A stretch of DNA of 37,946 bases from a virus. Positions 7,372 through 37,946 of this stretch are shown here, piece by piece (positions within the stretch are counted from its first letter, which is position 1; every line of letters begins with the position of its first letter). The notes beneath the pieces were generated by a model. That model was not told where the DNA came from. It made no database searches and saw only the letters and a list, made by a program, of their open reading frames with translations. The stretch lies in the IMG/VR virus record IMGVR_UViG_3300034073_002216, positions 1 to 37,946 of that record; one strand, 5' to 3'. Both the position numbers and the translations under genes were made by a program.

Positions 7372-7997
7372 TATCCAGCAATCTCCATAGCAGTAATAGT
7401 AGAAATGAAACGACCGCCAGCATAATTGTCCGTATCGTTTTGGCTTCTATTTATCCAAACCGAATACCCAACTTCATCGCGCACCTGCAATTTGTATGTT
7501 GTTGAAGAAGTGGTTGAAGGGCTATCCAAGTAACTGAAACTTGTACTCAGGGACTGATAAGCATTTGTAAAACCAACCGTGGTTGTTGCCTGAACCCTAC
7601 TGCCAGCCGCATCACCAATGGCAATAGCGGTTGAGCCACGGACAAGACGGATGAACCCCTGGGTATTTCCAGTCTGTGCATACGCAGTTATGTTGGACGT
7701 AATGAACACTTTGCTAGATGCAGAAGTCGGCGTGATGCTGACACTTAGACCAGTGATATCGGTGTAGGTCGCAGTCGTAAACGTTTGCGTATCGGTCTTA
7801 GTTGCGCTCACAACCTGAATAACTGAACCGCTCGTATAGTCCGAGTACGCCAACGTCTTCCACGCCGAACCATTCCAAATACGCACCAAATTCGTATCAG
7901 TCTCATAAATCATCATCCCGTCAAACGGGTTCGCTGGACGATTCGACGAAGTACAAACACCAGGCTTCAACCCCTGAGAAGTAGCAGAAATCGTCAT
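7371..7997 (-). CDS. Fibre-associated virion protein with module B
   Basis: The protein has 208 residues. Residues about 8-50 carry module B (GLKPGVCTSSNRPANPFDG, ETDT, IWNGSAW), shared with four other genes here. The remainder is a predicted beta domain containing TYTDITGLSVSITPTSASSK and TYKLQVRD and ending FISTITAMEIAG, a type often seen as a terminal domain in phage fibre proteins. The start overlaps the upstream stop as ATGA and the stop overlaps the next start as TAATG. It probably attaches through module B to the same base as the other fibre parts. Its ligand is unknown. Confidence 0.75.
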   Translation of the reverse strand: MTISATSQGLKPGVCTSSNRPANPFDGMMIYETDTNLVRIWNGSAWKTLAYSDYTSGSVIQVVSATKTDTQTFTTATYTDITGLSVSITPTSASSKVFITSNITAYAQTGNTQGFIRLVRGSTAIAIGDAAGSRVQATTTVGFTNAYQSLSTSFSYLDSPSTTSSTTYKLQVRDEVGYSVWINRSQNDTDNYAGGRFISTITAMEIAG

Positions 7998-9031
7998 GCG
8001 ATTACCAAACTACTGGAGGAGTTGAACGTGTGAATCGTGTACGAACCTGATGTGGAGGTTGTTCCGCCAGTGATGGTCAAGCCTATTGCATCTGCTGTGA
8101 GATAACGAACGATGACAACACCAGAACCACCTGCTCCACCAGCAATTCTATTGGAATATGCGGTACCACCACCGCCACCTCCAGTATTTGGTGTTCCAGC
8201 CACTGGGTTATTGGTGCCATTTGACCCAGCGCCGCCACCACCTGAACCACCAGAACTACTAGAGCCACTAGCACGAGTATCTCGTCCACCACCACCACCA
8301 CCTGCATAGGTAACAGAAGACCCAGTAATCGCCACAGCGACACCGTTGCCACCGTTACCTCCAGCGTTTGTGGCTGATGTTGCGCCAACTGCTCCAGCAC
8401 CACCACCACCACCACCAGCAGCCCAACTTGACGGCACTGAAGAAGTTGCACCAGCGTATCCTTGATTGGCTGTTCCAGCCGCACCTGCCGATGTGGTTGA
8501 TGGGTCTACCGCCCAGCCTCCGCCACCAGAACCACCAGTGGTTGCGTTTCCGTTTGAGTTTTGGTAACCACCACCACCTCCGCCACCACCAGCAGAAGTA
8601 ACCGTAGTTATACCAGTTCCCGCAATAGAACTTGCTGTTCCTTGACCTCCAGGAACTTCAGAACCACTATTACCAGTTCCTCCAGCACCAACAGTTATTG
8701 TGTAAGTTCCAGGTACTAATTGTAGTTGTGATTCAAGATTTCCCCCACCCCCAGTTGCAGTAACTGTTGAGCGTAACCCTCCAGCACCACCACCACCACC
8801 ACCGTTATAGCCATTACCACCTGCACCACCACCTGCAATTACGAGGTAATCTAGAGTAAGCGCAAGTTGGTGTGTTGTTCCACTTGACCAACCAGTACCA
8901 AGCCATACTTTCATCTTCTTTGTATCGGTCTCAAAAATAGTTTGCCCCACATACGGGGAAGCAGGACGAGTCGAACTAGTACAAACCCCTGGCTTCAGCG
9001 AGCCGATGCCGTAGTTCGAATCAACACCCAT
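7994..9031 (-). CDS. Glycine-rich receptor-binding-like protein with module B
   Basis: I start the gene at the ATG at 9031, which overlaps the upstream TAA as TAATG. A longer reading from 9052 would run 22 bases into the upstream gene and break the junction style used elsewhere. The 345-residue protein begins MGVDSNYGIGSLKPG. Module B lies at about 11-50, followed by LDYLVIAGGGAGG and a polyglycine-rich domain to about residue 295. It ends with SGVVIVRYLT and a beta tail (SGSYTIHTFNSSSSLVIA) almost the same as those of the 456- and 482-residue proteins. The likely function is receptor recognition at the fibre tip. It is the counterpart of the 1409-2299 gene in a duplicated cassette. Confidence 0.8.
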   Translation of the reverse strand: MGVDSNYGIGSLKPGVCTSSTRPASPYVGQTIFETDTKKMKVWLGTGWSSGTTHQLALTLDYLVIAGGGAGGNGYNGGGGGGAGGLRSTVTATGGGGNLESQLQLVPGTYTITVGAGGTGNSGSEVPGGQGTASSIAGTGITTVTSAGGGGGGGGYQNSNGNATTGGSGGGGWAVDPSTTSAGAAGTANQGYAGATSSVPSSWAAGGGGGGAGAVGATSATNAGGNGGNGVAVAITGSSVTYAGGGGGGRDTRASGSSSSGGSGGGGAGSNGTNNPVAGTPNTGGGGGGTAYSNRIAGGAGGSGVVIVRYLTADAIGLTITGGTTSTSGSYTIHTFNSSSSLVIA

Positions 9032-9366
9032 TAGACCGTTGTCTTTTCCCAACCAAACGCAGTAACTGTTACCTTGCTTGCCGTATCTGCAAGACCCTGA
9101 AGTGTTTCTGTGGGAGCAAGGACGATGGCCGTATCAAAGATAATGCTGTCGTTTGCGCCGATTGGGGTTGCCGAAAACAAGTGATTCGCTCCAGATGCCG
9201 CGCTGCCAATTGACAAAGTGAATGTTCGGTCAACGGTATCGGTATTGCAAATGACAACCTGCTTGATTACTTCCGTAACGCCAGCACCTGCTGTGCAGAT
9301 GGTTGTCGTACTTGTTCCAAGTTGTGTTGGGCCGCCAAGTCTTGATTCTGCTCTTGATGTAGCCAT
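9031..9366 (-). CDS. Small conserved fibre-associated beta protein, copy 1
   Basis: This 111-residue paralogue of the protein at 2303-2638 begins MATSRAESRLGGP and ends TAFGWEKTTV. It preserves nearly all of the other copy's conserved blocks, including TTTICTA, EVIKQ, ICNTDT, PIGAND and TETLQGLAD. It starts 2 bases after the stop of the 109-residue fibre-base protein and overlaps the next glycine-rich gene as TAATG. No transmembrane segment, signal or enzymatic motif is visible. A structural connector role is inferred only from the identical placement of both copies. The 118-residue protein at 14724-15080 holds the same position in a third cassette and is weakly similar in length and composition. 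Confidence 0.82.
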   Translation of the reverse strand: MATSRAESRLGGPTQLGTSTTTICTAGAGVTEVIKQVVICNTDTVDRTFTLSIGSAASGANHLFSATPIGANDSIIFDTAIVLAPTETLQGLADTASKVTVTAFGWEKTTV

Positions 9367-9368
9367 TT

Positions 9369-9698
9369 CTATGCTCCAATATCCATAACCGAAATAGCCC
9401 CTTCAGAATCTGTCTCAAGGCCGCCACTTGCTGGGATTGCGCTCGAAATCCACGCCCCAGCAGTAGTGTCATAGGTCAAGACTTGTCCATTTGTCGGTGC
9501 TACCGTCAAATCTACATCACCGAGGTTGTCAATTGATGACAGAACAGATGCATTCAACTGGCTTGAAGTAATAGCCCCAGATGGGATGACCGCAACAACA
9601 CCCTGCAAAACCCATACAGAACCGTTGTACTGCCATGTCTTGCCGCCAGCGTTATAGGAATCGCCGCTTGATGGTGAATTTGGAAAATCTATAGGCAT
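9369..9698 (-). CDS. Short fibre-base protein with N-terminal docking module
   Basis: This 109-residue protein consists mostly of the shared N-terminal module ([24 protein letters not shown]). A single decapeptide-like unit (SGAITSSQLNAS) follows, then a segment with LGDVDLTVAPTNGQVLTYD and a C-terminus ending ISVMDIGA. The last residues match those of the much longer collagen-like protein at 2642-4414. It therefore looks like a minimal version of that fibre with shaft and collagen parts missing, or a base plate for adjacent fibre parts. The start overlaps the upstream stop as TAATG. The function is inferred from modularity. Confidence 0.78.
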   Translation of the reverse strand: MPIDFPNSPSSGDSYNAGGKTWQYNGSVWVLQGVVAVIPSGAITSSQLNASVLSSIDNLGDVDLTVAPTNGQVLTYDTTAGAWISSAIPASGGLETDSEGAISVMDIGA

Positions 9699-11068
9699 TA
9701 CGAAATCACCAGGCTTCCTGAAGAGTTGAATGTTCTGACGGTGTACGAGCCAGAAGTCGTGGCACTACCCCCTGTAATTGTAAGTCCTGTAGAACTCGAT
9801 GTCAGGTAACGAATGATGACAACCCCAGAACCACCACCGCCACCCCACGCGTTTGGTCCGTTTCCTTGACCACCGTTCCCAGTATTTGCCGCGCCCGCAC
9901 CACCGCCACCACCATTCCCGTAACCAACTCCACCAGCGGCTCTTGTCACTGATGTCCCAGTAATGCTTGACGCAACTCCAGGACCACCAGACGAACCAAG
10001 TCCACCAGCACCACCACCGCGTCGACCACCGCCGCCGCTTTCTCCTGCATAGCCTTGATTTGCTGTTCCTGCACCACCAGAACCAGTTACTCCGAAGGCA
10101 CTCGTACAGGAGCCTCCACCAGAGCCACCAGAACCACCATTAGCCAAAGACGCATCGCTGTTCTCTGATGCACCACCACCGCCACCAACGCACGAAATTG
10201 TATGGAACGCCGATGAATTACCGCTACCAGCACCGACTGTGACTGTGTAGGTTCCAGGTGACAGAACAAGTGGTGATTCTGCTGAAGCCCCACCACCAGA
10301 GGATTCTCCAGAGACGGAAGAACGGTAGCCACCACCACCGCCACCACCGCTTCTGCTGTACCCACCAGCGCCTCCCGCTGCGACTACGACATACTCGACA
10401 GAAATTTCCGTAGTAGTTGTGAATGAAACACCAGAAGATGCAACTCCGCTTCCAATTTCATTGACGCCACGCAACTGAGCAACATATGCTGTTCCCATTG
10501 AAAGCCCGCTGATGGTAATCGGGCTCGTGGAGTCTGCTGGAGATAGTGCTGTCCATGAACCGTATGTACTACCACCATTTGTAGAAAGTCTGTACTCGTA
10601 ATTACTAATCGCGGAAATAGGTGAAGACCCAGCAGTAAATGAAATAGCAACACTCGTGCTAGACGCAACAGCACTAAGGGAAGTCGGTGCGGATGGGGGT
10701 CTTAGTCCAACTGGCAACCATGTTGAGCCATCCCAAATTAAAAACGCATTAGTGTCAGTTTCAAAAATTGGTTTTCCAGATGACGGGGTTTCTGGTCGTG
10801 TCGTAGATGTGCAAACCGTAAGGATATTGACAGCACTATCAATTTTTGCTGACGTAACGGCATTAGCGGCGATTTTTGCGGTTGTCACTGCGTTGCTTGC
10901 GATTTTTGCAGTAGTCACTGAATTGGAAGCGAGTTCAGATTCCGTAACTGAAGCAACACCCAAGGCAGAACTGTTGAGTTCCCAAATTGTTCCGTTCCAG
11001 GTCCATGTACGCGTTCCAACGGTATAAGTGTCGCCATTTGTCGGAGATGAAGGAAATGAAAGCGGCAT
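9698..11068 (-). CDS. Modular tail fibre: docking, decapeptides, FN3, glycine-rich adhesin
   Basis: The protein has 456 residues. Residues 1-31 are the docking-like module (MPLSFPSSPTNGDTYTVG). About 39-78 are four decapeptides (SNSVTTAKIA type). About 84-121 is module B (CTSTTRP, ETDT, IWDGSTW). About 122-219 is a fibronectin type III-like domain (PPSAPTSLSAV, SNYEYRLSTNGGSTY, ITISGLSMGTAY, TTTT). About 223-420 is polyglycine-rich, and the end is a beta tail SYTVRTFNSSGSLVIS. It is a close paralogue of the next gene upstream with the same domain order, so a tandem duplication is very likely. The glycine-rich heads differ most, as expected of an adhesin. Confidence 0.83.
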   Translation of the reverse strand: MPLSFPSSPTNGDTYTVGTRTWTWNGTIWELNSSALGVASVTESELASNSVTTAKIASNAVTTAKIAANAVTSAKIDSAVNILTVCTSTTRPETPSSGKPIFETDTNAFLIWDGSTWLPVGLRPPSAPTSLSAVASSTSVAISFTAGSSPISAISNYEYRLSTNGGSTYGSWTALSPADSTSPITISGLSMGTAYVAQLRGVNEIGSGVASSGVSFTTTTEISVEYVVVAAGGAGGYSRSGGGGGGGYRSSVSGESSGGGASAESPLVLSPGTYTVTVGAGSGNSSAFHTISCVGGGGGASENSDASLANGGSGGSGGGSCTSAFGVTGSGGAGTANQGYAGESGGGGRRGGGAGGLGSSGGPGVASSITGTSVTRAAGGVGYGNGGGGGAGAANTGNGGQGNGPNAWGGGGGSGVVIIRYLTSSSTGLTITGGSATTSGSYTVRTFNSSGSLVIS

Positions 11069-12516
11069 TACGCAACCACCAAACTGCTTGAGGAATTAAA
11101 CGTATGGATTGTGTATGAACCAGACGTCGTTGTTGTGCCACCACTAATTGTAAATCCTGAAGCGGTCTTTTCAGATGTCAAATATCGAACAATTACCACA
11201 CCAGAGCCACCATTGCCACCGTTGTATGGCGCACCTTGCCAGTTTCCACCGCCACCACCGCCACCAGTGTTGGCGGTTCCAGCAACTCCGCCGTTCGCGC
11301 TTGCCCCACCGCCACCAGTTCCACCAGTTATTCCGTTTCCGTAGTCCCCACCACCGCCACCACCACCGCCGCGAGTCACTGCAGTTCCAGTAATAGAAGA
11401 TGAAACACCGTTGCCACCAGCACCACCCCATGTATTTCCTGCGTTTGCTCCCGCCTGGCCAGCACCACCACCGCCGCCAGAGCCATTGGGGTACGAACCG
11501 TTCCCACCCGCGTAACCCTGACCAGCAGTTCCTGCTGCGCCAGTGGTGTCACCCGTGTATCTACCGCCACCACCAGAACCACCAGTCGTTCTAGTCGAAC
11601 CACCCGCACCGCCGCCGATTGATGTGATTCCATTAAAAACGGAGTTGTTTCCTGGATTCGAGTTTGCCGCCCCTCCGCTTCCAACCGTCACCGTGTAGGT
11701 TCCAGTACCAATGCTCATCGACGCCTCGGCAGAAGCACCTCCACCAGATGTTGCACCAGAAACATTTGTGCGATAGCCACCTGCACCGCCACCGCCACCG
11801 CGCTCGTAACCACCAGCGCCGCCACCCGCAATCACGAGATATTCGACAGCAATTGTTGATGTCGTTGTAAATGACACAGTGGATGACTCGGGTCCTGCGC
11901 CAACATCATTTACGGCTCTTAATTTCGCAACATATGCTGTAGCCATTGAAAGACCGCTAATAGTTATTGGCGACGTTGAATCTGCTGGCGAAAGTGCTGT
12001 CCACGAACCGTACGAACTTCCACCATTTGTGGATATTGCATATTCATAATTACTGATTGGAGAAATATATGACGCCCCAGCGGTAAATGAGATACTTACT
12101 GTTGTTGTCGATGGGGTAGCAGAAAGACTAGTCGGTGCTGCTGGGGGGTATAAGCCGACTGGAATCCATGTTGAACCGTTCCAGATTCGGAACGACTTCG
12201 TATCGGTCTCAAAAATAGTTGCACCAACAGATGGCGAGCCTGGCCGCGTGCCTGAAGTGCACGTCTCCATAACGATTACGTCTGAATTTAGTTTTGCTTG
12301 AGTAACGCTAGACGAAGCAAGTTTCCCAGTAGTAATTGCGTCCGACTGAATCTTGTTGGCAGTTACGGCATTTGAGGCAAGTTCGGTAGATGTTACCGAA
12401 CCACTAGGTATGCCAGTTCCGCTGACTTCCCAGATAGTTCCGTTCCATGACCACGTTCTTTGCCCGAGCGTGTATGTATCACCAACGCTCGGAGAAGACG
12501 GGAATGAAATTGGCAT
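11068..12516 (-). CDS. Modular tail fibre: docking, decapeptides, FN3, glycine-rich adhesin
   Basis: The protein has 482 residues and the same layout as the 456-residue neighbour. It has docking module MPISFPSSPSVGDTY, then four decapeptides (SNAVTANKIQ type). Module B follows (CTSGTRP, FETDT, IWNGSTW). The FN3-like domain has PPAAPTSLSATPS, SNYEYAISTNGGSSY and ITISGLSMATAY. A longer polyglycine head precedes a tail SYTIHTFNSSSSLVVA. Conserved stretches such as WTALSPADSTSPITISGLSM are shared with the neighbour, while the glycine-rich loops are different. The ATG overlaps the stop of the 121-residue gene in the sequence GGTGAGTAATGCC. It is likely part of the fibre or receptor-binding complex. 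Confidence 0.83.
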   Translation of the reverse strand: MPISFPSSPSVGDTYTLGQRTWSWNGTIWEVSGTGIPSGSVTSTELASNAVTANKIQSDAITTGKLASSSVTQAKLNSDVIVMETCTSGTRPGSPSVGATIFETDTKSFRIWNGSTWIPVGLYPPAAPTSLSATPSTTTVSISFTAGASYISPISNYEYAISTNGGSSYGSWTALSPADSTSPITISGLSMATAYVAKLRAVNDVGAGPESSTVSFTTTSTIAVEYLVIAGGGAGGYERGGGGGAGGYRTNVSGATSGGGASAEASMSIGTGTYTVTVGSGGAANSNPGNNSVFNGITSIGGGAGGSTRTTGGSGGGGRYTGDTTGAAGTAGQGYAGGNGSYPNGSGGGGGAGQAGANAGNTWGGAGGNGVSSSITGTAVTRGGGGGGGGDYGNGITGGTGGGGASANGGVAGTANTGGGGGGGNWQGAPYNGGNGGSGVVIVRYLTSEKTASGFTISGGTTTTSGSYTIHTFNSSSSLVVA

Positions 12517-12912: not shown

Positions 12913-14724
12913 TTAGAAGGTTATAGAGCCAGATGCAGTAAATACATATATGTGGTATCCACTTGCATTTAAATACGTCGGTGAACCAGTCGTCGACGCA
13001 GCCCGCGAAAGACTGTTCGGCCAACGAAATATTACTACACCAGACCCACCATTTGCTCCAGAGCCATCAGATGGGTGGGAGCCGCCACCGCCACCGCCAC
13101 CAGTGTTTGCCGTTCCCGCACCCGCCGCAGATGTATAGCCACCAACCCCTCCGCCCCCTAGCCCGCCAGAACCAGGAGTTCTGGCCCCTGTATTTGTGTT
13201 TTGCGAACCGCCGCCACCACCGCCACGCGTTACCGATGCTCCAGTTATCAAAGAAGAGAGTCCGTTGCCTCCGTTGCCCCCATTTGTAGTGCTCCATACC
13301 CCACCAACTGCTCCAGCACCACCACCTCCGCCGCCTCCAAGGGCAACGCTGCCTGTATGCCCGCCGTTACCGCCCGCATAACCCTGAAGCGCGGTACCAG
13401 CAGCACCCGTATTAGCCTGAACACCAGACCCGCTACCACCACCTCCGCCGCCACCAGAGCCGCCACTATATCCAGAGAAGGCCGCTTGCATTCCGCCCCT
13501 ACCTCCGCCAGTTGATGTGATTGTGCTGATGGTGCTTCCAGAAATTGAAGAATTTCCCCCGTCAGTATGCGCGCCTGCCGCCACTCTCCCAGTTCCACCA
13601 GACCCGACAGTGACAGTGAATGTCGCCCCAACTGAATAACTAATCGGTGCTTCTGCTGCTGAACCGCCCCCACTCGTCTCTTCGATTACGGAAGAACGGT
13701 AGCCGCCAGCACCGCCACCTCCGCCGCCACCGCTACCAGAACCACCACCACCTCCGCCACCTCCACCAATCACCAGATATTCGATTATCGGCCGTGGCGC
13801 AAAAAGAATATTTCCGCTAGATGTGAATGTAATGGTTATATAAGTTCCATCTGTGGTTTGAGTACCACCATAAACAAACCAATTTGTTAATTCACCAATA
13901 AGAAAACGTAGCGTCACAATTCCTGATTGCCCACTATTCGTGCCAGAACTTCCTGCCCCATAACCAGATGGTCGCCCAGATGCACTTAAGTTTGCATTGG
14001 TCAAAATATTTGAAACATAACTACTTCCACCACCACCAGCGGAACCAGGATTTGCTCCCGAACCAGCACCGCCTCCCCAGTATCCTCCTCCGCCTCCGCC
14101 GCCACCACCGCCATCGCCAGAACCAGAGCAATCACCACCCAATAGTGCCCCAGCAGCAGTGGTGCCACTCGGTCCAGTACCAGCAGCACTCTGCGTTCCG
14201 CCAGTTCCACCAGAAGCGGAACCAGCACCGCCATTTCCGCCAGTTGAGCCGCCGCCATTACCGCCGACTGCGCCCTCCCATGCCCCACCACCGCCACCAC
14301 CAGCGACAACGAGAGCGTTCCCCTGACTTACTGTCCGTGTACTGAAAAATCCAGAATACCCACCACCTTGCCCCCCATAACCAAGAGAGCCAGCAAGCCC
14401 ACCATTACCCGCTGGGCGCGTCCCAGGTCCAGCGTTTGCTGCCATTGCCGCCCCACCACCGCCGACAACAATCGAAAATACTTCAGCCGTGGTAACTCGA
14501 TATGTTGCAGTTACATACCCACCAGAACCGCCAGACCCACCAGCGCCATTCGCATGTCCACCACCGCCACCAGCACCTAATGCAGCGACATCAACATAAA
14601 TAGATTGATTGGACCAATTCCCAGCACCGTTTTCCTGTTGTTGCTCAACAAGTGACCATATTCCAGAGGGAATTACCGCCCCAGATATCGACTTTGGCCC
14701 AATGCGTCCGCCACGTCTACCCAT
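12913..14724 (-). CDS. Double glycine-rich adhesin-like tail protein
   Basis: The 603-residue protein begins MGRRGGRIGPKSISGAV, then SGIWSLVEQQQ, a start seen in many phage glycine-rich virion proteins. A first glycine-rich domain (VDVAALGAGGGGG) runs to about residue 265 and ends VTLRFLIGEL. A beta strand motif (YITITFTSSGNILFA) leads into IEYLVIGGGGGGGGG and a second glycine-rich domain ending SGVVIFRWPNS. The closing tail is YHIYVFTASGSITF. It resembles the two-domain partial protein at 1-1409 in layout. Its start overlaps the stop of the 118-residue protein as TAATG. A role as distal receptor-binding protein is inferred. Confidence 0.8.
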   Translation of the reverse strand: MGRRGGRIGPKSISGAVIPSGIWSLVEQQQENGAGNWSNQSIYVDVAALGAGGGGGHANGAGGSGGSGGYVTATYRVTTAEVFSIVVGGGGAAMAANAGPGTRPAGNGGLAGSLGYGGQGGGYSGFFSTRTVSQGNALVVAGGGGGGAWEGAVGGNGGGSTGGNGGAGSASGGTGGTQSAAGTGPSGTTAAGALLGGDCSGSGDGGGGGGGGGGYWGGGAGSGANPGSAGGGGSSYVSNILTNANLSASGRPSGYGAGSSGTNSGQSGIVTLRFLIGELTNWFVYGGTQTTDGTYITITFTSSGNILFAPRPIIEYLVIGGGGGGGGGSGSGGGGGGGAGGYRSSVIEETSGGGSAAEAPISYSVGATFTVTVGSGGTGRVAAGAHTDGGNSSISGSTISTITSTGGGRGGMQAAFSGYSGGSGGGGGGGSGSGVQANTGAAGTALQGYAGGNGGHTGSVALGGGGGGGAGAVGGVWSTTNGGNGGNGLSSLITGASVTRGGGGGGSQNTNTGARTPGSGGLGGGGVGGYTSAAGAGTANTGGGGGGGSHPSDGSGANGGSGVVIFRWPNSLSRAASTTGSPTYLNASGYHIYVFTASGSITF

Positions 14725-26457: not shown

Positions 26458-29400
26458 CTACGACCTATTCCGCATTTCATAAATTGACCGCTCAAGTTCG
26501 CTCTTGATTTGAGGAAGTGCTTCTTTTATACCCAGACCGTTCACGTTGAGGTTAACAGTTATATCCCCTCCACCAGAAGACGTTACTGTGGGTGTTGTTG
26601 TCATTTTCTTCGATGCTGGAACAGTCATGTCACCCATCGGTGCTGAGACCCCTGGACCTGGGACAACGTGCAGATGCCGATTTGCGCCACGACCGTGATA
26701 CTCAGCAAACCCACCAGACTTTTCAACAGTTGTTTTGTACATGCCAAGTTGTTGGCCAACAAGGTCGTATGCGCGTCCAGTTATGTGGTCCGAATTGAGT
26801 GAACCAAGATTGTTTGTGCGATAGGAGGAGGTAATTCTTCGTGAACCAGAGACCATTCCATCGATGGCCATATGGCGAGCCATTGTCTGAGAGAGTCTGC
26901 TTGCTGTTGTGTCACCAATTCCACGACCACGAGGAGTTTTTGTATCTCCATCAATCCCTGCCGCCTTGAACACTTCGGTGAGGGCAGCCTTTGACCACCA
27001 TTCTGGATTTTCTGCTTCTGGTCCGAAGAATTTGCCCATACCGTCAATAATCTCTTTTTCAGATTGCATAAGCATCAGTTCTTTTTCTGCTGCGTCGGCC
27101 AAAGCAAACGCTGCATCTTTATCGCTAATCGTATTAACAGAGACTCCAGTAACGCCAAAACTGCTCAGGAATTCAGTGGCGCTTAGTCCGCCAAGGTCTC
27201 CGCTTGCAAGAGAATTAGCGAAAAGTTCTTGCATATCGGTATCCATCCCGAGAAATGCTTTTTTGACTTTTTCCACATCGCCAGTAGCGAGCGCCTTGTT
27301 GCCACCAGCAAGAATTGCTCCGAATTGAGTCGTAAGTGTCGTCGCCACATCACGCTCGGACATATTAAGGAAGTCATTTACTGCTTGACCAGGAATACCA
27401 GTAAACATTGCTCCGCCAAGGCCGCCAAGCGGATTGAGTTTTCCAGATGCGTTGCGCTCATTAAACGCAAGTCCAGTCTGACTACCCATCTGTCTTTGCA
27501 ATTCAAAAAATGCTTTGACAGAGTTTCCGCCATACATATTTGTAAGTTGCTCAAACGCTGTCCCATAAAGCAATTTGGCATCTTCAGAAGTGACCGTTGC
27601 ACCAGCACCTCTGGCATTGAAATCCATGCGGAAATTCTTCATTACCTCATCGAGTATCTCTGGGGCCTGCTCAAGTTTGATTGCCTGGTCGAACACCGAA
27701 AGATTTTTTGTAACAAGTTCAGAAATTGTTTGATTAATTTGGTCTTTCGTTTTTATAACGGTTACGCCAAGTTTTTCGAGTTGCTCTCTGAAGTCTGCCG
27801 TATTATCTGCAAGATTTACACCCATTGTCTGCGCAAGTTTTACAACTTGAATTTCAGACATTCCAGTCATATTTGCTATAAATTTGGTGCGCGAGTCGAC
27901 CACCTTGGCGATATTGTCGGCTGCAACAGCCATGGAGTCGCCTTTCTTTACATAGTTTTCAAGAAATTTTTGCTGGACGGTGTCGTCAACTTTTTTATCT
28001 CGCGCAAAACGTCTTTTGACTGGCGCAGTAAGTTCGTTGTACTGCGACTCACTGATTGCTCCAGCCGCAAATAACTGGTCAATTGCTGAGCCACGCTCCT
28101 GTCTACGACGATTATTTGTATCATCCCTAAAACGGTTGTATAAAAACTTTGCTCCATAGGTCACAGTTGCTGCTGTTCCGCCGACTGCGCCGCCAACCAG
28201 CGCACCACCAAGAATTGCTGGCGTCAGCGCTCCGCCAGTTGACAGCGCTGCACCAGTACCAATAGCAGCGCCAGTGGTTCCTCCAGCAAGGATTCCTGCG
28301 ACTAAGTGGTCGCGAAGGGATGTGCCACTCCCGCGTGGCCCGCCACCAGCGGCACCCTTTTGGGCAATCATTGCATATTTTCGATATTCCCCACCTTGCG
28401 TTCTTAGAGAGGAAGCAATAGTGCTTTGTGTTTTATTTGAACGATATGCGGCATTTTCCAACAGCGCCAGGTTGACCATCATGTTTCCAACGGAGGCGCT
28501 AAAAAACGAATTTACAATACCCTTTGCTTTTTCGGTCGCGGCCTTCATTCGATTGATGGGGGCCATAATCGTTCCAGTTAGCGTTCCGATTGCCGCACCA
28601 ATTGCTGTACCCATCGGACCGAACTGAGAGCCGATTGCTGCACCAGCGCCAGCGCCACCAAGCGCGGCCATTGCGCCATTTTGGCTCTTGAGCGCAAACG
28701 TACCAGCGGCAATACCAGCGCCAAGTTTTGGATTGAACATAGCCATAGAAGCACCAAGCGAAAGTCCGCCAGCAACATCTTTGCCAACCATTCCACTTTC
28801 AGCAAGACGTGCCAAGCCCATCGAAAGCCCGAATGCTCCGAAGCCACCACCCAACCCGCCAAAACCCTTGCGACCCTCTGCTTCCCGTTGCGCTTTATAC
28901 GCATGGCTTGCGCCCATTATCCCACCCATAGATGCCATGCGCCGATATAGCGGAATACGCCCACCTGGCAAACCCTTGCTTTGCCCCATGTAATTTTTGT
29001 GTTCAGGGAATTGCTGGCCTTTAAAACCCTTGGGCTGTTGCCCTTGATTTTGCTGGTTGGATGGATTTGATGGCGCTGGCTGACCGCTGCCAGGTCCCTG
29101 TGATGGTGAAGTCGGTAATCCGCCCGCAGAGCGAAGCCCTCTTGATGCCCTCCCCAGTGCTTGATTAAAAGAATCAAGACCTTTGGTCGCCCTGCCAGCA
29201 GAAGACGCTAAGCCATCTGTTCGCTTGCTGGTAACACCACTTGTTGCGGTAACTGCAGCACCAGCACCAGCGACCGCACTTGCTGCACCTTTTCCTAGCC
29301 CAAGTTTCCCCATTATTCCCTTGATACTCAATGCACTAGCGACTGTCCCACCAGTTTTATTCCACCACTCTTGCGCCTTCGGACCGAGCCAACCGCCTTT

Positions 29401-31206
29401 AGCGGCACCACCAGCAAGAGCACCGATAGCAGCACCTTTCGGACCAGCAAGTTTTCCAACCTTATAGCCCTCGTAGGCACCCTTAAGTGTCCCCATGATG
29501 CTGACGTTATTGGCCTGCACGTTCATCTGTTGCGTGCGCTCAACCAATGTTCCCTTGTTGGTTTTCATTCCACGACCCATAGCCATAAGAGCCATGAATG
29601 CTTCTCGGCTGCTGAACAGGGGCAACTTCTCAAGCGACTCAAACATTTGCTTGAGTGTCTCAAAAACAGTTCCAACACCGTCGAGAATTTTTGTAATGAA
29701 TGGGAGATTGTCTTGAATTATTCTTTCAAATATTCGAATGACTTGAATTAACTTTACAATCATTTCACCGAGCGCTGTTCCAAACTTTTCAAACGCTGGC
29801 CGATTCTTTTGTGTTGCTTCGTTAAACTCTTTCGTACCTTCTTTGATTTCTTTCCAAACTGGCCGCCAGGCTTTTCCAAAAGACTTTTCAATAACACGTG
29901 CGCCATCCACAAGTGGTCTTAGGCCGTCAGCAACTTCTTTCCAGCCGCGCTTAAATTTCGTCCACCAATCACCAAGTCTGCTAAACATGCCCTCTGACTT
30001 TGGTAGATACTCTTGGATAAGTTTCACATAAAAATTAGAAATTTTTTCAACCGCACCAACAATTACATCGACAAACCCACCTCTGCTATTCCAGCCACTT
30101 ATTGCTCCGCTGGTCATCGACATTGTTCTTGTGAAAATACGATAAATCCGCTCGAGGCCAACTTTTGCTTCTGGGAGGAACTGCTGGCCAAAGTCAGCAA
30201 ACTGGCCACGAATCAAGTTGAAATATTTCTTTAACTGACCAACCAATGTGTTGTTGACTGCGTCAAATTGTCCAGTTACGCCACCGAGCATTGACAACTT
30301 ACCGCTGTTCATTGCTTCAATAAACTTTTCTTTTGTATTGATTCCTTCTTTGGCAGCCTTCTTCAAAGCCTCTTCCATTGCTGGACCAAGTTCTTTTGCA
30401 GCAGCCTGAACTGCGCCAAAACCCTTCTTTTGGTCCTCAAGGGCGGCTACGAGTTTTGCTGCTTTTTGCACACCTTCTTCAAGCGGCTGACCAGCGGCTG
30501 CAAAGTCCATCAAACCTTTCAAGAGTGTTTTACTTGCGCCCGTATACCCAGCACCACCCTTGGCGATTTCTGCGAATGCCTTATTGAGTCCTTCAATTCC
30601 AACACCAGCAAGTTGCGTGTCCATTTGCAAGCCACGCATCATCATTCGCGTTTGATTCAGGCCGTTGCCGAATTCCTTATGCCCCTTACCAAGATATGCA
30701 TATGTCGCCGCCTGCTGTTCACGTATTGCTGCTGATACCAAACCGATTCCAGTTGCAGCACCAGCAGCGGTTGCGGCCAGGGCCTGTAATCCGACTTGAT
30801 AGGCTTTCATTAGAAACTTTCCAGCGACAAACGCAGCGTGAACGCCGACCATCGCAATGCTCATTGCGCCCAATGACACCGTGGCAAGTTTTAGACCGCC
30901 GACGAGAGACTTAACAAGAGCGCTACCCATCTGCACAATCATTTTGTGGACTGGGAACATCACCCTGTCAAAAGTTTTTCCGCTGCCACTCAACTTGCTC
31001 AATGCGGCATTCGCTGCTGTCGCGGCACCAGCAAGTTTCAGCAAAGAGCGAGAAGTCCCATCAGCGGACTTGCTCATTAATTTGAGTTTGGCCGATGTTT
31101 TAGTCGCGTGGTCGCCTAATTCATCGACCCGTTCTACGGACTTACGAGGCCCCTCATCCCTCGTTGTCCGTACGCTTATGCGTATGTCTCTGCTTACATC
31201 AGACAT
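26458..31206 (-). CDS. Tape measure protein with C-terminal M15-like peptidase domain
   Basis: At 1582 residues this is the longest gene, directly after the tail chaperone as usual. The first 100 residues are polar and basic, and the 105-200 region is hydrophobic (AMSIAMVGVHAAFVAGKFLM). Long helical and Gly/Ala-rich segments follow (GGAGAGAAIGSQFGPMGTAI). TAGGAAA lies 5 bases upstream. Near the C-terminus, SDHITGRAYDLV at about 1472-1483 and RHLHVVPGP at about 1510-1518 match the S-x-H-x-x-G-x-A-x-D and H-x-H pattern of zinc M15 peptidases. Candidate metal ligands are H1474, D1481 and H1513. The tape measure sets tail length and may enter the cell at injection. The peptidase would locally cut peptidoglycan. 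Peptidase activity is inferred from motifs. Confidence 0.88.
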   Translation of the reverse strand: MSDVSRDIRISVRTTRDEGPRKSVERVDELGDHATKTSAKLKLMSKSADGTSRSLLKLAGAATAANAALSKLSGSGKTFDRVMFPVHKMIVQMGSALVKSLVGGLKLATVSLGAMSIAMVGVHAAFVAGKFLMKAYQVGLQALAATAAGAATGIGLVSAAIREQQAATYAYLGKGHKEFGNGLNQTRMMMRGLQMDTQLAGVGIEGLNKAFAEIAKGGAGYTGASKTLLKGLMDFAAAGQPLEEGVQKAAKLVAALEDQKKGFGAVQAAAKELGPAMEEALKKAAKEGINTKEKFIEAMNSGKLSMLGGVTGQFDAVNNTLVGQLKKYFNLIRGQFADFGQQFLPEAKVGLERIYRIFTRTMSMTSGAISGWNSRGGFVDVIVGAVEKISNFYVKLIQEYLPKSEGMFSRLGDWWTKFKRGWKEVADGLRPLVDGARVIEKSFGKAWRPVWKEIKEGTKEFNEATQKNRPAFEKFGTALGEMIVKLIQVIRIFERIIQDNLPFITKILDGVGTVFETLKQMFESLEKLPLFSSREAFMALMAMGRGMKTNKGTLVERTQQMNVQANNVSIMGTLKGAYEGYKVGKLAGPKGAAIGALAGGAAKGGWLGPKAQEWWNKTGGTVASALSIKGIMGKLGLGKGAASAVAGAGAAVTATSGVTSKRTDGLASSAGRATKGLDSFNQALGRASRGLRSAGGLPTSPSQGPGSGQPAPSNPSNQQNQGQQPKGFKGQQFPEHKNYMGQSKGLPGGRIPLYRRMASMGGIMGASHAYKAQREAEGRKGFGGLGGGFGAFGLSMGLARLAESGMVGKDVAGGLSLGASMAMFNPKLGAGIAAGTFALKSQNGAMAALGGAGAGAAIGSQFGPMGTAIGAAIGTLTGTIMAPINRMKAATEKAKGIVNSFFSASVGNMMVNLALLENAAYRSNKTQSTIASSLRTQGGEYRKYAMIAQKGAAGGGPRGSGTSLRDHLVAGILAGGTTGAAIGTGAALSTGGALTPAILGGALVGGAVGGTAATVTYGAKFLYNRFRDDTNNRRRQERGSAIDQLFAAGAISESQYNELTAPVKRRFARDKKVDDTVQQKFLENYVKKGDSMAVAADNIAKVVDSRTKFIANMTGMSEIQVVKLAQTMGVNLADNTADFREQLEKLGVTVIKTKDQINQTISELVTKNLSVFDQAIKLEQAPEILDEVMKNFRMDFNARGAGATVTSEDAKLLYGTAFEQLTNMYGGNSVKAFFELQRQMGSQTGLAFNERNASGKLNPLGGLGGAMFTGIPGQAVNDFLNMSERDVATTLTTQFGAILAGGNKALATGDVEKVKKAFLGMDTDMQELFANSLASGDLGGLSATEFLSSFGVTGVSVNTISDKDAAFALADAAEKELMLMQSEKEIIDGMGKFFGPEAENPEWWSKAALTEVFKAAGIDGDTKTPRGRGIGDTTASRLSQTMARHMAIDGMVSGSRRITSSYRTNNLGSLNSDHITGRAYDLVGQQLGMYKTTVEKSGGFAEYHGRGANRHLHVVPGPGVSAPMGDMTVPASKKMTTTPTVTSSGGGDITVNLNVNGLGIKEALPQIKSELERSIYEMRNRS

Positions 31207-31261: not shown

Positions 31262-31956
31262 CTACTTGTTTTCGCGCCGTTCTCGCTCGCGGTCGTTTGA
31301 TACCACTTTAGCACAGGCCATCAGTATCAGCCATTCTTCTTGGCTGCAGTTGAGAATCTCTAGCGGGCTTGTGCCCCAGAGTTCGCCTAGTCGGGCAGCG
31401 TTGATTACCAAGGAATCTTCGACTAGTTCGTCGAAGACTCCCTCATAGGGTCCTCGGTGTCAACCGTATCTGAATATCCAGCAGCCTCAAGGATTGCAAC
31501 TGCCGCAGACTCAACGTGCGGGTCAACACCAAAGAATGCACGAACACAGTCTGGCTGTGGGCGCGTAGTCTCTGTCATTTCGAGGATGAGGTCCGACGCA
31601 AAAGTCAACTCGTTGCCGTCGGCATCGCGAACTTCTTCGTCATTGAACATGATTCCGCGCGTTGTATGACCAACAACAAGGCAGGCAAAACGGAGTGCAT
31701 CCATGCCGCTCTTGGTGTCTTCGCCAGCGTTCTTGCGCCATGAGCGGAGTTGATTCTGAGTGATGTTTGGGCTGATAATCAACTTGACGTTTGGTCGCTC
31801 GGGGACGGTCAGGTGGACGTTTGGACGCTCCACCTTACGCTTGATTGCTGCAGACAACTGCGAAAGCAGCGTCGGCTCAGCGCCCTTGTCCTGCTCCTTC
31901 TTGGCAGCAGGCTTCTTTGGTTCTTCTGGAGTTGTATAAAGTTCAGAGTTGCTCAT
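31262..31956 (-). CDS. Tail assembly chaperone, extended form by probable -1 frameshift
   Basis: After the zero-frame stop region, the -1 frame is open to TAG at 31262-31264 and encodes about 61 residues including LGELWGTSPLEILNCSQEEW and LILMACAKVVSNDRERE. The segment has no start codon with a ribosome binding site of its own, and its codon pattern is protein-like. It fills the gap up to the tape measure gene. This is the standard layout of the gpG/gpGT pair, in which a fraction of ribosomes slip to make a longer chaperone that binds the tape measure. Slipping at C-CCT would give about 231 residues. The exact site is not proven. An assembly error is an alternative, but the genomic position argues against it. 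Confidence 0.7.
31423..31956 (-). CDS. Tail assembly chaperone, short (zero-frame) form
   Basis: This 177-residue protein sits between the tube and tape measure genes, the classic place for the gpG-type chaperone. I start it at ATG 31956 (MSNSELYTTPEEPKKP). The longer TTG start at 31977 adds 7 residues and lacks support. The first 45 residues are Lys/Pro/Glu-rich. The folded part includes VPERPNVKLIISPNITQNQL, DALRFACLVVGH, and the C-terminus ends ESAAVAILEAAGYSDTVD then TEDPMRESSTN before TAG. Such chaperones coat the tape measure during assembly and are absent from mature virions. A second frame continues the protein (see the extended form). Confidence 0.8.
   Translation of the reverse strand: MSNSELYTTPEEPKKPAAKKEQDKGAEPTLLSQLSAAIKRKVERPNVHLTVPERPNVKLIISPNITQNQLRSWRKNAGEDTKSGMDALRFACLVVGHTTRGIMFNDEEVRDADGNELTFASDLILEMTETTRPQPDCVRAFFGVDPHVESAAVAILEAAGYSDTVDTEDPMRESSTN
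31426..31459 (-). promoter_or_regulatory. Interval where the chaperone -1 frameshift must occur
   Basis: Going minus-strand 5' to 3', the -1 frame first opens after a TGA ending at 31460, and the zero frame closes at the TAG at 31423-31425. The shift must therefore lie between. The best candidate is CCCT at 31450-31447. There a proline tRNA reading CCT could re-pair with the overlapping CCC one base back, followed by TAT. No perfect X-XXY-YYZ heptamer is present, and no strong downstream stem was seen by eye. Confidence 0.45.
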
Positions 31957-32009: not shown

Positions 32010-32480
32010 TTACTTACTGGCAACCGTTGAAACAGAGAAGGTCAACGCAAATGTTGATGGTGCGCCAGATGACGAGTCTCCGTCTGGTTCGGTCAGACCA
32101 ACCAGAAGGGCCTTCGAGTAGATGCGGTCAAGACCTGGCTTCTTGAGGTCACAGTCATAGGTTTCAACTGTGATGTCGTAGTAGGCCTTACCGACATACT
32201 CTCTCAACTTGGCAACCTTTGCTGCAAGACCAGTGTCGCTGTCCGAAGGGACTCTGTCGTCGTCGTAGTGTGCGGTCAGCGTGATGTCACCGATATCAAA
32301 CGGCGCGCAGAGGACCGTAGGGGAGGATGCTCCACCTTCGTAAATCTTCTCGACCGAAGCAGTGATTTCTCCACCCGACACCTGAGCAAAACGGAATGTT
32401 TCAAACTTTGGCAAGTCTGGGATAAGCGCACCGTGCGGAGCAATTCTCGCCAGTACTTGCCTTTGTGATACTTTTGCCAT
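32010..32480 (-). CDS. Tail tube protein
   Basis: The 156-residue protein follows the sheath gene after 17 bases, with GGAGGA 6 bases before the ATG. It begins MAKVSQRQVLARIAP and contains TFRFAQVSGGEITASVEKIY, LCAPFDIGDITLTAHYDD and LREYVGKAYYDITVETYDCD, ending TFALTFSVSTVASK. The length and beta-rich pattern fit the tube proteins of contractile tails, which stack as hexamer rings in the sheath to form the DNA channel. Its place between sheath and chaperone is standard. Confidence 0.88.
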   Translation of the reverse strand: MAKVSQRQVLARIAPHGALIPDLPKFETFRFAQVSGGEITASVEKIYEGGASSPTVLCAPFDIGDITLTAHYDDDRVPSDSDTGLAAKVAKLREYVGKAYYDITVETYDCDLKKPGLDRIYSKALLVGLTEPDGDSSSGAPSTFALTFSVSTVASK

Positions 32481-32497: not shown

Positions 32498-33976
32498 CTA
32501 GACGACCGACTTGGTCAGGTTCGACTTGATGATGTCGACTTCAATCTTGTCACCGACGCTTGACACACGCAGACCGACACGGGCCTTGATAAGGCCATCG
32601 GCAAGTTGTGTCGTCGGGTTGAGGCTCGGGTCACACTTGACCGTGTAACCAAAGTCAATTCTCTTGCCATTGACATCGAATGCCTCGAACAGCGCTCCAT
32701 TCGCACGGAGTGGCTCAAGGATGGAGAACAACTTCGACTCAACTGCTGAGAAGATTGTGTTTCTGCCATCGATGACGCTGAAGATAAGGTCTTCGAGCGA
32801 GCGGTAAGCCTCGACAACCACCTGGTTGACGACATCCTGAGCCGTGATGTAACGGAAATTCGTTGTATCTGGCGAGAGCGAACGTGCTCCGTAAACACGA
32901 ATCGTATTGTTGATGACACGAATTGCATTGACGTATGAATCATCAAGTGCATCGCCGTTCGTCTTGTCGATGTCTGTTGCAACACCGTTGACAAACTGCG
33001 CAACCGAGATGAGACCAGCGCCTGGCTTGTGCGCTCCAACCTGTGTATGGGCAACTGCGCGCTTTGCTGCAGCATATCCAACTGGTGGAATCAGGCGGTT
33101 GACGCCAGCAACACTCGTCGGAATGTAAACCCATGGGTAGAAGTAGGCGACATGCTCTGCGTGATTGTCAGCAGCAGACAGCGTGTTGCCAGCCGTCTTG
33201 GCCTCAGCAATTGTGTCGTCGTATGCGCCGTTAAGGAACGCAACTCTGTTGTATGTATTTGCGTGTGTGGCAAGACCGCTCTGAACTGTTGAGTTCGTCG
33301 ACTCTGGGCAAACAACAACACCAGTTCCATAAGACTCAAGGAACAAATCGAGGCCAGTGACATAGTTTGCTGCAGTGACAGTCTCTTCGTTGTCATCACC
33401 AGCGGACAATGCAGTTGCTGCCTGGTTCTCGGGAAGCGGAGAACCAGAAACCTGAAGGTCTGTTGCGGTAACAACTTTCGATGCAGCAGCACTAGAGTTG
33501 ATACGACCAACTGCCTGCGCAACGGATGTGCAATTGCCAGTGCTGTAAAGCAGCGTTCCGTTGTCGTAAATCTTCACGATGAACGTGCTTGCAACAGTTC
33601 CTGGGTTGACAGTCTCAACGGTGATTCCGCTGCTCCAAGCACCAGGTCCGTTGGCGGTGATGGTCATAACATCATCGCCCCCTGCGCCACCTTCGTTCAG
33701 GCTAATGGTTCCAGTTGAATGACCAGAGCCAGCAACGCGAGAGATGTAGGCTCTTGTTCCGCCCTCTTCGAAGAATGTCTCAATGGTCGGGTGCAAGTAC
33801 GAGTACGATGCATAGCCACCATAAATTGCTTCGAACTCAGCGAGGCTGGTGACCAACTTTGCCGTGTTGACTGGACCGCGGGCGGCCTTGCCAACAGCGA
33901 ACAACTGCGAGGTCTCTACTGCGGTTGCCGCATTGGGACCGACTCTTACTGCTGTTTGTATGCTTACGCCTGGCAT
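32498..33976 (-). CDS. Tail sheath protein
   Basis: This 492-residue protein has the typical sheath start MPGVSIQTAVRVGPNAATA, then LFAVGKAARGPVNTAKLV, EFEAIYGGYASYSYLHPTIE and FFEEGGTRAYISRVAG. The C-terminal domain includes INNTIRVYGARSLSPDTTNF, RYITAQDVVNQVVVEAYRSL and FGYTVKCDPSLNPTTQLADG and ends in GDKIEVDIIKSNLTKSVV, all characteristic of phage sheath proteins. The sheath contracts to drive the tube through the cell envelope. This gene is the clearest proof that the virus is a myovirus. GAGGAAGG lies 4 bases upstream of the ATG. Confidence 0.96.
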   Translation of the reverse strand: MPGVSIQTAVRVGPNAATAVETSQLFAVGKAARGPVNTAKLVTSLAEFEAIYGGYASYSYLHPTIETFFEEGGTRAYISRVAGSGHSTGTISLNEGGAGGDDVMTITANGPGAWSSGITVETVNPGTVASTFIVKIYDNGTLLYSTGNCTSVAQAVGRINSSAAASKVVTATDLQVSGSPLPENQAATALSAGDDNEETVTAANYVTGLDLFLESYGTGVVVCPESTNSTVQSGLATHANTYNRVAFLNGAYDDTIAEAKTAGNTLSAADNHAEHVAYFYPWVYIPTSVAGVNRLIPPVGYAAAKRAVAHTQVGAHKPGAGLISVAQFVNGVATDIDKTNGDALDDSYVNAIRVINNTIRVYGARSLSPDTTNFRYITAQDVVNQVVVEAYRSLEDLIFSVIDGRNTIFSAVESKLFSILEPLRANGALFEAFDVNGKRIDFGYTVKCDPSLNPTTQLADGLIKARVGLRVSSVGDKIEVDIIKSNLTKSVV

Positions 33977-36697: not shown

Positions 36698-37240
36698 TTA
36701 CCTGTCTTTATTGGGTGGCTTTTCGATGCTGACGGACTCGACAGTACCTGCTGGCGCTTCAATCGGAACCCAAGCGCGAGAATATTTATGTTCGCCAATG
36801 TTTGCTTTCTTAATAATTGTTCCATCAAGCAGCAAAGAAATTTCGTCGTATTTCATTGACAGCAACTTTTCCAAGTCTTCTTCTGAATATTTCTTACTGA
36901 TTACCAAATCCTTGACCACGCGAGAAACCCGATGCGCCACAAGAGAGCCGCGCCCCCGATTCAGACGCAAATGCATCATTGCTGCTTCGAGCGAATCGCA
37001 ATCTACAAAGACGACAGGTATTTTCTTTGCCTTCTCTTTGATTTGCTTAACTTCTCTCGCCAGCATCCAACGGTGATAGCCATCAATAATTGACCCATCG
37101 CCCTTACGCACAATGATTGGGGTGACGAAACCAAACTCGGACAAAGAAGCAGACAGGACCAAAAGGTCTGGGCGCAAAATATAGTTGCTGTGCCAGTCGC
37201 CTTTCTTTAGTGATTCTGGGTCAACCATTTCAACTTTCAT
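36698..37240 (-). CDS. ParB-like protein
   Basis: I choose the ATG at 37240. GGAG lies 6 bases upstream, while the in-frame ATG at 37246 is immediately next to it and the ORF from 37318 has no signal. The 180-residue protein starts MKVEMVDPESLKKGDWHSN. Residues about 20-58 contain the ParB N-terminal pattern: LRPDLLVLSASLSEFGFVTP, IIVRKGDGSIIDGYHRWMLA. The core D-G-x-H-R-type motif appears as DGYHRW. It overlaps the PAPS-reductase-like gene by 11 bases, so the two are probably translated together. The pair resembles IbrA/IbrB organisation. A role in gene regulation or DNA modification is inferred; partitioning is unlikely in this setting. Confidence 0.82.
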   Translation of the reverse strand: MKVEMVDPESLKKGDWHSNYILRPDLLVLSASLSEFGFVTPIIVRKGDGSIIDGYHRWMLAREVKQIKEKAKKIPVVFVDCDSLEAAMMHLRLNRGRGSLVAHRVSRVVKDLVISKKYSEEDLEKLLSMKYDEISLLLDGTIIKKANIGEHKYSRAWVPIEAPAGTVESVSIEKPPNKDR

Positions 37241-37946
37241 CGTCATCTCCACCTGTTTGTTCGTTCTGCTCCTCAAACTCCAACTCGCGCATTGCGTGAA
37301 CTTTGGTTTTTGGTCCAATCGGTCCAGCAGATATTTGAGCGCCCAATTCGTTCATAAACATTGAACGAATAAGTTGGTACATCGTGTACGACCTGGGGTC
37401 AGCCAAATGCTTTTTTCTGAATTCCGCCACATATGCTTTGGCGCGCTTTGTCTTTGTCGGCCCAATCATGTAGTCGTCAATAAATTGTTTTGCTCCGTCA
37501 AAGCCCAAACTCGCATACTGGTTAATTACTGCTTCCACGTCAAGGTTCTCCCAATACAGGCGTTGTGCGTCAATATACGGGAAACACTGGACTAAGCGGT
37601 CATAGAACTCTGGCTCCGTCCTGACGACATCACCGATACGCCTGATTGCTACAGAATGCAGAGGGATGCCCACCCTGGTGTTGCTTCCAGTTATTGCAGC
37701 CCTGTCGTAGTACTCGCAATAACGCTCTCCATGTTCTTCAATGATGAACTTAAATACGTCTGCCGTCTGCCAGTCGTAGATGACCTTCGCAAACTTAAGA
37801 GGAATGCCCTTTTTCAATTTGTATGGCGTAACGATGTAGTTTTCATGCAATTTCTGAACCAAGGAGCGATACCGAATCATTGACTCATTTGCGCGCACGC
37901 CAGTAATAAAAGCAACACTGCCCTGCTTGCCCTGCATGGTGTAGTA
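37230..37946 (-). CDS. PAPS reductase-like (ATP pyrophosphatase fold) protein, partial
   Basis: The gene is cut by the right edge of the window, with 238 codons visible. The first in-frame ATG (37937) is probably not the real start, because the codons before it are open and the family's SGGKDS N-terminal motif is missing. Visible motifs are VAFITGVRANESMIRYRSLV, VIYDWQTADVFKFIIEEHG and YCEYYDRAAITGSNTRVGIP, characteristic of the C-terminal half of phage PAPS reductase-like proteins. An acidic C-terminal tail (EEQNEQTGGDDDES) follows. The family transfers sulfate- or nucleotide-type groups, but many phage members have unproven substrates. It overlaps the ParB-like gene. Confidence 0.82.
   Translation of the reverse strand, partial: YYTMQGKQGSVAFITGVRANESMIRYRSLVQKLHENYIVTPYKLKKGIPLKFAKVIYDWQTADVFKFIIEEHGERYCEYYDRAAITGSNTRVGIPLHSVAIRRIGDVVRTEPEFYDRLVQCFPYIDAQRLYWENLDVEAVINQYASLGFDGAKQFIDDYMIGPTKTKRAKAYVAEFRKKHLADPRSYTMYQLIRSMFMNELGAQISAGPIGPKTKVHAMRELEFEEQNEQTGGDDDES

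Follow-up and report, generated by a model that had tools for sequence, protein, structure and literature searches.

The tail assembly chaperone gene of the viral DNA analysed here (a stretch of 37,946 nt, called the window in the following) very probably uses a programmed -1 frameshift of the lambda G/GT type, in which two tRNAs would slip in tandem at G_GAC_CCU under stimulation by a downstream hairpin. We put the probability of this reading at about 93%. Comparative sequence supports the two reading frames, the core of the slip site together with covariation at its first position, covariation in the hairpin, and selection acting on the extension that the -1 frame encodes. As an event, a -1 frameshift between tail assembly chaperone ORFs is of an already known kind, namely that of lambda G/GT.

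The tail gene block and its two reading frames

The zero-frame protein is a homologue of tail assembly chaperones. It matches PHROG 5088 with an E value of 5.7e-12 as well as annotated tail assembly chaperones in tblastn, and it could be aligned with 33 relatives. This match together with the tube and sheath genes located upstream assigns the region to the tail genes of a phage with a contractile tail (Table 1). The order of the genes in the window, which is sheath, tube, chaperone, extension and an ORF of 1582 aa, is that of annotated phages. No PHROG match was obtained for the 1582-aa ORF, whose start as presumed tape measure gene (31206) lies 55 nt past the end of the extension.

The -1 frame of the minus strand is open from 31459 and closes at TAG 31264-31262. 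The stretch which is open in both frames comprises 37 nt (31459..31423) and contains a CCT at 31449..31447 with a C directly before it. Read after CCC, the -1 continuation of 61 residues starts with YEGVFDEL and finishes with RRENK. These coordinates agree with the preliminary description, according to which the zero frame ends near a -1 frame of about 61 residues that reaches to the tape measure gene. The gpG/gpGT-like arrangement proposed there is supported by the gene order, the chaperone match and the conserved -1 extension. We also looked for tRNA genes and found none in the 37,946-nt window; therefore no tRNA gene of the fragment helps to explain the slip.

Table 1. Positions of the features discussed in the text, in window coordinates.
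Feature	Positions	Strand	Remarks
Zero-frame tail assembly chaperone (gpG-like), 177 aa	31423..31956	minus	ATG 31956, TAG 31425-31423; PHROG 5088
Slip heptamer G_GAC_CCT, predicted re-pairing on GGA and CCC	31447..31453	minus	identical in 53/72 representatives
Putative stimulatory hairpin, conserved 12-bp stem	31412..31441	minus	zero-frame stop at hairpin loop
-1 frame extension (T-like), 61 aa after CCC and TAG stop	31262..31447	minus	conserved among relatives
Large ORF in tape measure position, 1582 aa	26458..31206	minus	position, length, annotated homologous neighbourhoods
Tail tube protein	32010..32480	minus	PHROG 5102, E 8.6e-20
Tail sheath protein (contractile tail)	32498..33976	minus	PHROG 23, E 5.2e-39
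ORFs matching PHROG 2295	1409-2299, 4486-5988, 7994-9052, 9698-11068, 11068-12516, 12913-14724	minus	

Further genes of the window are listed here for completeness. On the minus strand, six ORFs align to a common segment of PHROG 2295 (profile positions about 370-890; E 4e-22 to 5e-56), and several of them have tail-fibre-like segments. They are apparently adjacent paralogous receptor-binding or fibre-tip proteins. By eye, the C-terminal part of the large ORF 26458-31206 contains a motif resembling M15-type peptidases (SGSRRITSSYRTNNLGSLNSDHITGRAYDLV...HLHVVPG); the Pfam scan gave no match to an M15-type peptidase. Beyond the tail genes, a phosphoadenosine phosphosulfate reductase-like gene is located at 37230-37937 (PHROG 2302, E 1.1e-35).

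A first scan of IMG/VR with the zero-frame protein yielded 80 loci. Later scans added Arthrobacter and Gordonia phages, a marine clade and further freshwater phages, which gave a comparison set of 177 loci with 72 representatives at <90% nucleotide identity. Many of the 177 loci are duplicate retrievals of one contig, so that counts are best taken from the 72 representatives. The frame break and the -1 continuation are found in every locus of the first scan in which the 3' end of the zero frame is present (the contig of L037 stops shortly past the slip site), and the two-frame layout is kept in 72/72 representatives. That a single frame was split by a sequencing or assembly error has next to no probability and was rejected; we found nothing in its favour, and the break occurs at an identical position in all 72 divergent representatives, sequenced isolates included. 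The local base error that the preliminary description had considered is thus at odds with a break which recurs in all divergent relatives for which the 3' end is available. The same tail module is also borne by two contigs (L092, L093) of a marine Gammaproteobacteria MAG (isolate SP183). Since the nearest sequenced isolates infect actinobacteria, these two may be binned phage contigs and not prophages.

Within the first set of relatives the product of the -1 frame is 52-89% identical at the amino acid level. The extension is under purifying selection, as indicated by a median omega of 0.17 for 190 pairs, calculated from the part past the zero-frame stop only. It is predicted to be all-helical, with a mean pLDDT of 94 in the structure model. 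Pfam and PHROG scans of the extension from 29 relatives gave only weak matches to unrelated or unnamed families, and a PDB fold search with the models of chaperone and extension returned nothing usable (best E 0.46 and 2.6). Outside its own relatives, the extension could be placed in no known family or fold, and its T-like role is therefore deduced from position and arrangement.

In some Arthrobacter phages the second ORF is annotated as a gene of its own (KBurrousTX gene 21, Colucci gene 20), and the window contains a TTG at 31411, from which one might suppose a separate translation by re-initiation or from a start past the chaperone stop. However, 64 of the 72 representatives have no ATG, GTG or TTG before the conserved core of the -1 frame, and in ten there is none anywhere in the -1 ORF. 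The conservation of the -1 frame begins already at the slip site, which precedes any such start codon, and the conservation of slip site and hairpin would be left unexplained. A separate start was rejected as very improbable, since no start codon for the second frame is conserved among the relatives; the view that the -1 frame is without a start signal of its own stands.

Conservation and variants of the slip site

As already stated in the preliminary description, the overlap in the window is devoid of a classical X_XXY_YYZ heptamer in frame. Counted from GAC, the latest opening of the -1 frame among the relatives is at +2 and the earliest zero-frame stop at +9. A single site common to the whole family would therefore have to lie within a few bases around CCT. 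The sequence found there is G_GAC_CCT in 53 of the 72 representatives. A C precedes CC(T/G/C) in all 72 (CCT 66, CCG 4, CCC 2), which means that CCT or CCC is present at 68 sites, CCG at four and CCA at none.

Among the first 36 representatives, GAC is invariant (36/36) and is followed by CCT in 32 and by CCG in the remaining four. The codon before GAC ends in G in 35 of them. Variation at this third base amounts to 0.18 bits, compared to 0.96-1.94 bits at the third bases of the 19 codons further upstream. Elsewhere in these genes GTG makes up 17% of the Val codons, GAC 57% of the Asp codons and CCT 24% of the Pro codons. According to the frameshift model the -1 frame is untranslated upstream of the slip, and coding therefore gives no reason to fix a G before GAC.

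The wider set extends this pattern. The base before GAC is G in 58 of 64 representatives, and in the eight in which AAC replaces GAC it is A without exception. The codon pairs switch jointly (GTG GAC to GTA AAC, GAG GAC to GAA AAC), and GAC or AAC with a matching preceding base is followed by CC(T/G/C) in 66/72 representatives. Conservation thus extends beyond C_CCT to the full heptamer G_GAC_CCT, as shown by the covariation between the first base of the GAC or AAC codon and the base in front of it. A slip on proline at C-CCT was the candidate of the preliminary description; its CCT core holds in all lineages, and C_CC(T/G/C) occurs together with both frames in 72/72 (as CCT in 66), while the upstream G has to be added as part of the conserved unit.

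A classical heptamer is present in 12 of the 72 relatives, of which eight have A_AAC_CCT and four have C_CCT_TTG. On the protein tree, from which the slip region was left out, the A_AAC state requires at least two changes, and A_AAC_CCT is present in two independent lineages. The four sequences with C_CCT_TTG are among the six representatives that lack the G before GAC. Only L005 (A_GAC_CCT) and L157 (T_GAC_CCC) are without both options, and C_CC(T/C) is kept in both. An upstream Shine-Dalgarno-like stimulator, which is an optional feature, is not conserved; loose matches at -20 to -7 were found in only 9/72 representatives.

The pattern of C_CCT preceded by a P-site codon whose first base is repeated directly in front of it agrees with the prediction from tandem slippage, in which the P-site tRNA would keep its first pair and the A-site Pro-tRNA would re-pair on CCC. 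The two exceptions, L005 and L157, are allowed if the Pro-tRNA slips alone on the tetramer C_CCT and the base before GAC is of little weight. C_CC(T/G/C) is indeed the sole part kept in all 72 representatives, these two included, and C_CC.U and C_CC.C act as tetramers in E. coli in the presence of a strong stimulator (PMC4066793). Slippage of a single tRNA leaves unexplained, however, why G stands before GAC in 58/64 and A before AAC in 8/8 representatives, and why A_AAC has two origins; moreover, four of the six exceptions with GAC carry the classical C_CCT_TTG. We consider it unlikely, though not negligible. The fusion product is identical for slippage of one or two tRNAs.

Homologues of the zero-frame protein with about 30% identity are found in phages of Gordonia (ScarletRaider, ChisanaKitsune, DalanDe) and in Arthrobacter Klausavirus phages (ArV1, Colucci, KBurrousTX). 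Both groups resemble the window in gene order, position of GAC CCT and the presence of a -1 extension. The Gordonia phages, for which a joined CDS is already annotated, differ from the window by a classical C_CCT_TTG one codon later and by C or T before GAC. The Klausavirus phages have G_GAC_CCT like the window, and the frameshift is unannotated in the records viewed. ArV1 (L084) keeps G_GAC_CCT and the -1 extension, which is unannotated; in KBurrousTX (L086) and Colucci (L087) both are likewise kept and the extension is given as a separate, shorter gene.

The downstream hairpin

In the window the sequence 3' of the slip site folds strongly into a hairpin, with z -3.86 relative to dinucleotide shuffles. 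This hairpin is absent from the preliminary description and is an addition of the present analysis. Its stem has 12 bp, and in the main class the first pair is located 5 nt after CCT. Since the encoded protein itself could cause the fold, synonymous recoding was used as a control, in which the -1 codons past the zero-frame stop were swapped synonymously. The real sequence is more stable than the recodings in 35 of the 36 representatives of the first set (mean z -1.57), in 17 of 19 from the short-overlap class of the wider set (mean z -1.40) and in all eight of the A_AAC class (mean z -1.81). The effect of recoding is weak in the phages of Gordonia (4) and Arthrobacter (5), and the hairpin is weak or unclear also in a few freshwater loci, e.g. 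L062 and L173. In 39 aligned sequences the 12-bp stem forms in 91.9% of the cells, six stem pairs have changed on both sides, and the covariation score is above all 500 shuffles and all slid versions; as the hairpin tests share ancestry, their combined significance is not to be taken at face value.

A stable structure 5 nt past the slip codon fits the range of about 5-9 nt for stimulated bacterial -1 signals, and a spacer of 5 nt between CCT and the stem fits a position of CCT in the A site. An identical end product would also result from transcriptional slippage, if some of the mRNAs carried an indel at the slip site. The runs at the site consist of only three identical bases (CCC, AAA), and transcriptional slippage usually needs runs much longer than that. 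Since the hairpin at ribosomal spacing and the codon-phased conservation are a better fit to ribosomes, we regard this explanation as practically negligible.

The proposed frameshift and related sites

According to the proposed ribosomal frameshift, the majority of the ribosomes would finish the 177-aa chaperone and terminate at TAG 31425. A minority, with the P site occupied by the Asp-tRNA on GAC and the A site by the Pro-tRNA on CCU, would encounter the hairpin at a distance of 5 nt, and the two tRNAs would move back by one base, to GGA and CCC. The slipped ribosomes would then read 61 further codons, which would give a fusion of chaperone and extension (...TEDP-YEGVFDEL...). In analogy to lambda, the unfused chaperone and the fusion together may coat the tape measure protein and recruit the tail tube protein during assembly. 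The actual slippage of ribosomes, its rate, its mode with two tRNAs in preference to one, and the role in assembly are inferred.

The tail assembly chaperone frameshift of lambda gpG/gpGT was described by Xu, Hendrix and Duda 2004 (as given in PMC7302621) and is reviewed in PMC5009743. Common to lambda and the window are two overlapping ORFs directly upstream of the tape measure gene, a -1 extension, a fusion made by frameshifting only and a conserved slip site. The window differs from lambda by G_GAC_CCT in place of a classical heptamer such as G_GGA_AAG, by a contractile tail, by a clear 3' hairpin and by an extension without a recognised sequence family.

Re-pairing of the P-site tRNA on GGA is imperfect, and G_GAC_CCT is thus a non-classical site. 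G_GA in place of X_XX is known from -1 sites of several eukaryotic viruses, e.g. G_GAU_UUU (PMC5009743). These G_GAY_YYZ-like sites share with the window the imperfect P-site re-pairing on GGA and the good re-pairing in the A site. They differ in having U in the A-site codon and in being read by eukaryotic ribosomes, whereas G_GAC_CCU would be read by bacterial ones. The six tetramers which are shift-prone in E. coli with a stimulator include C_CC.U and C_CC.C, while C_CC.G and C_CC.A are weaker, and C_CC.U_UU.G is among the motifs exceeding 0.1% without a stimulator (PMC4066793). With a strong stimulator only A_AA.C_CC.A, G_GG.C_CC.A and C_CC.G_GG.C are named as remaining below the threshold; A_AA.C_CC.U is not among these motifs and therefore passed (PMC4066793).

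Many annotated phage frameshifts lack X_XXY_YYZ, according to the work on PRFect and SEA-PHAGES frameshifts (PMC10885494 and its preprint). The PRFect motif 'twoonefour' may be close to G_GAC_CCC; judged by its name, it needs four identical last bases, which GGACCCT does not have (PMC10885494). A literature search for GGACCCT or GGACCCU in combination with frameshifting yielded no relevant paper within a coverage that left out most subscription papers. In our opinion G_GAC_CCU probably works by itself as a heptamer for tandem -1 slippage in bacteria, despite the imperfect pairing on GGA; it would be the predominant form in a clade of diverse contractile-tailed phages from aquatic habitats and would have interchanged with A_AAC_CCU and C_CCU_UUG within one and the same gene in evolution.

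With this finding, phage tail frameshifting gains a non-classical slip site that is well supported. It also provides a simple rule for locating tail chaperone extensions in metagenomic phages, and it indicates that deposited records of Arthrobacter phages lack such extensions or give them in shortened form. One gene family which has G_GAC_CCT, A_AAC_CCT and C_CCT_TTG at the same place represents a natural experiment on the bases that slipping tRNAs need. If the reading of G_GAC_CCU is true, the slip rules for bacteria as well as gene finders would have to be less strict about the P site and demand a match chiefly at its first base.
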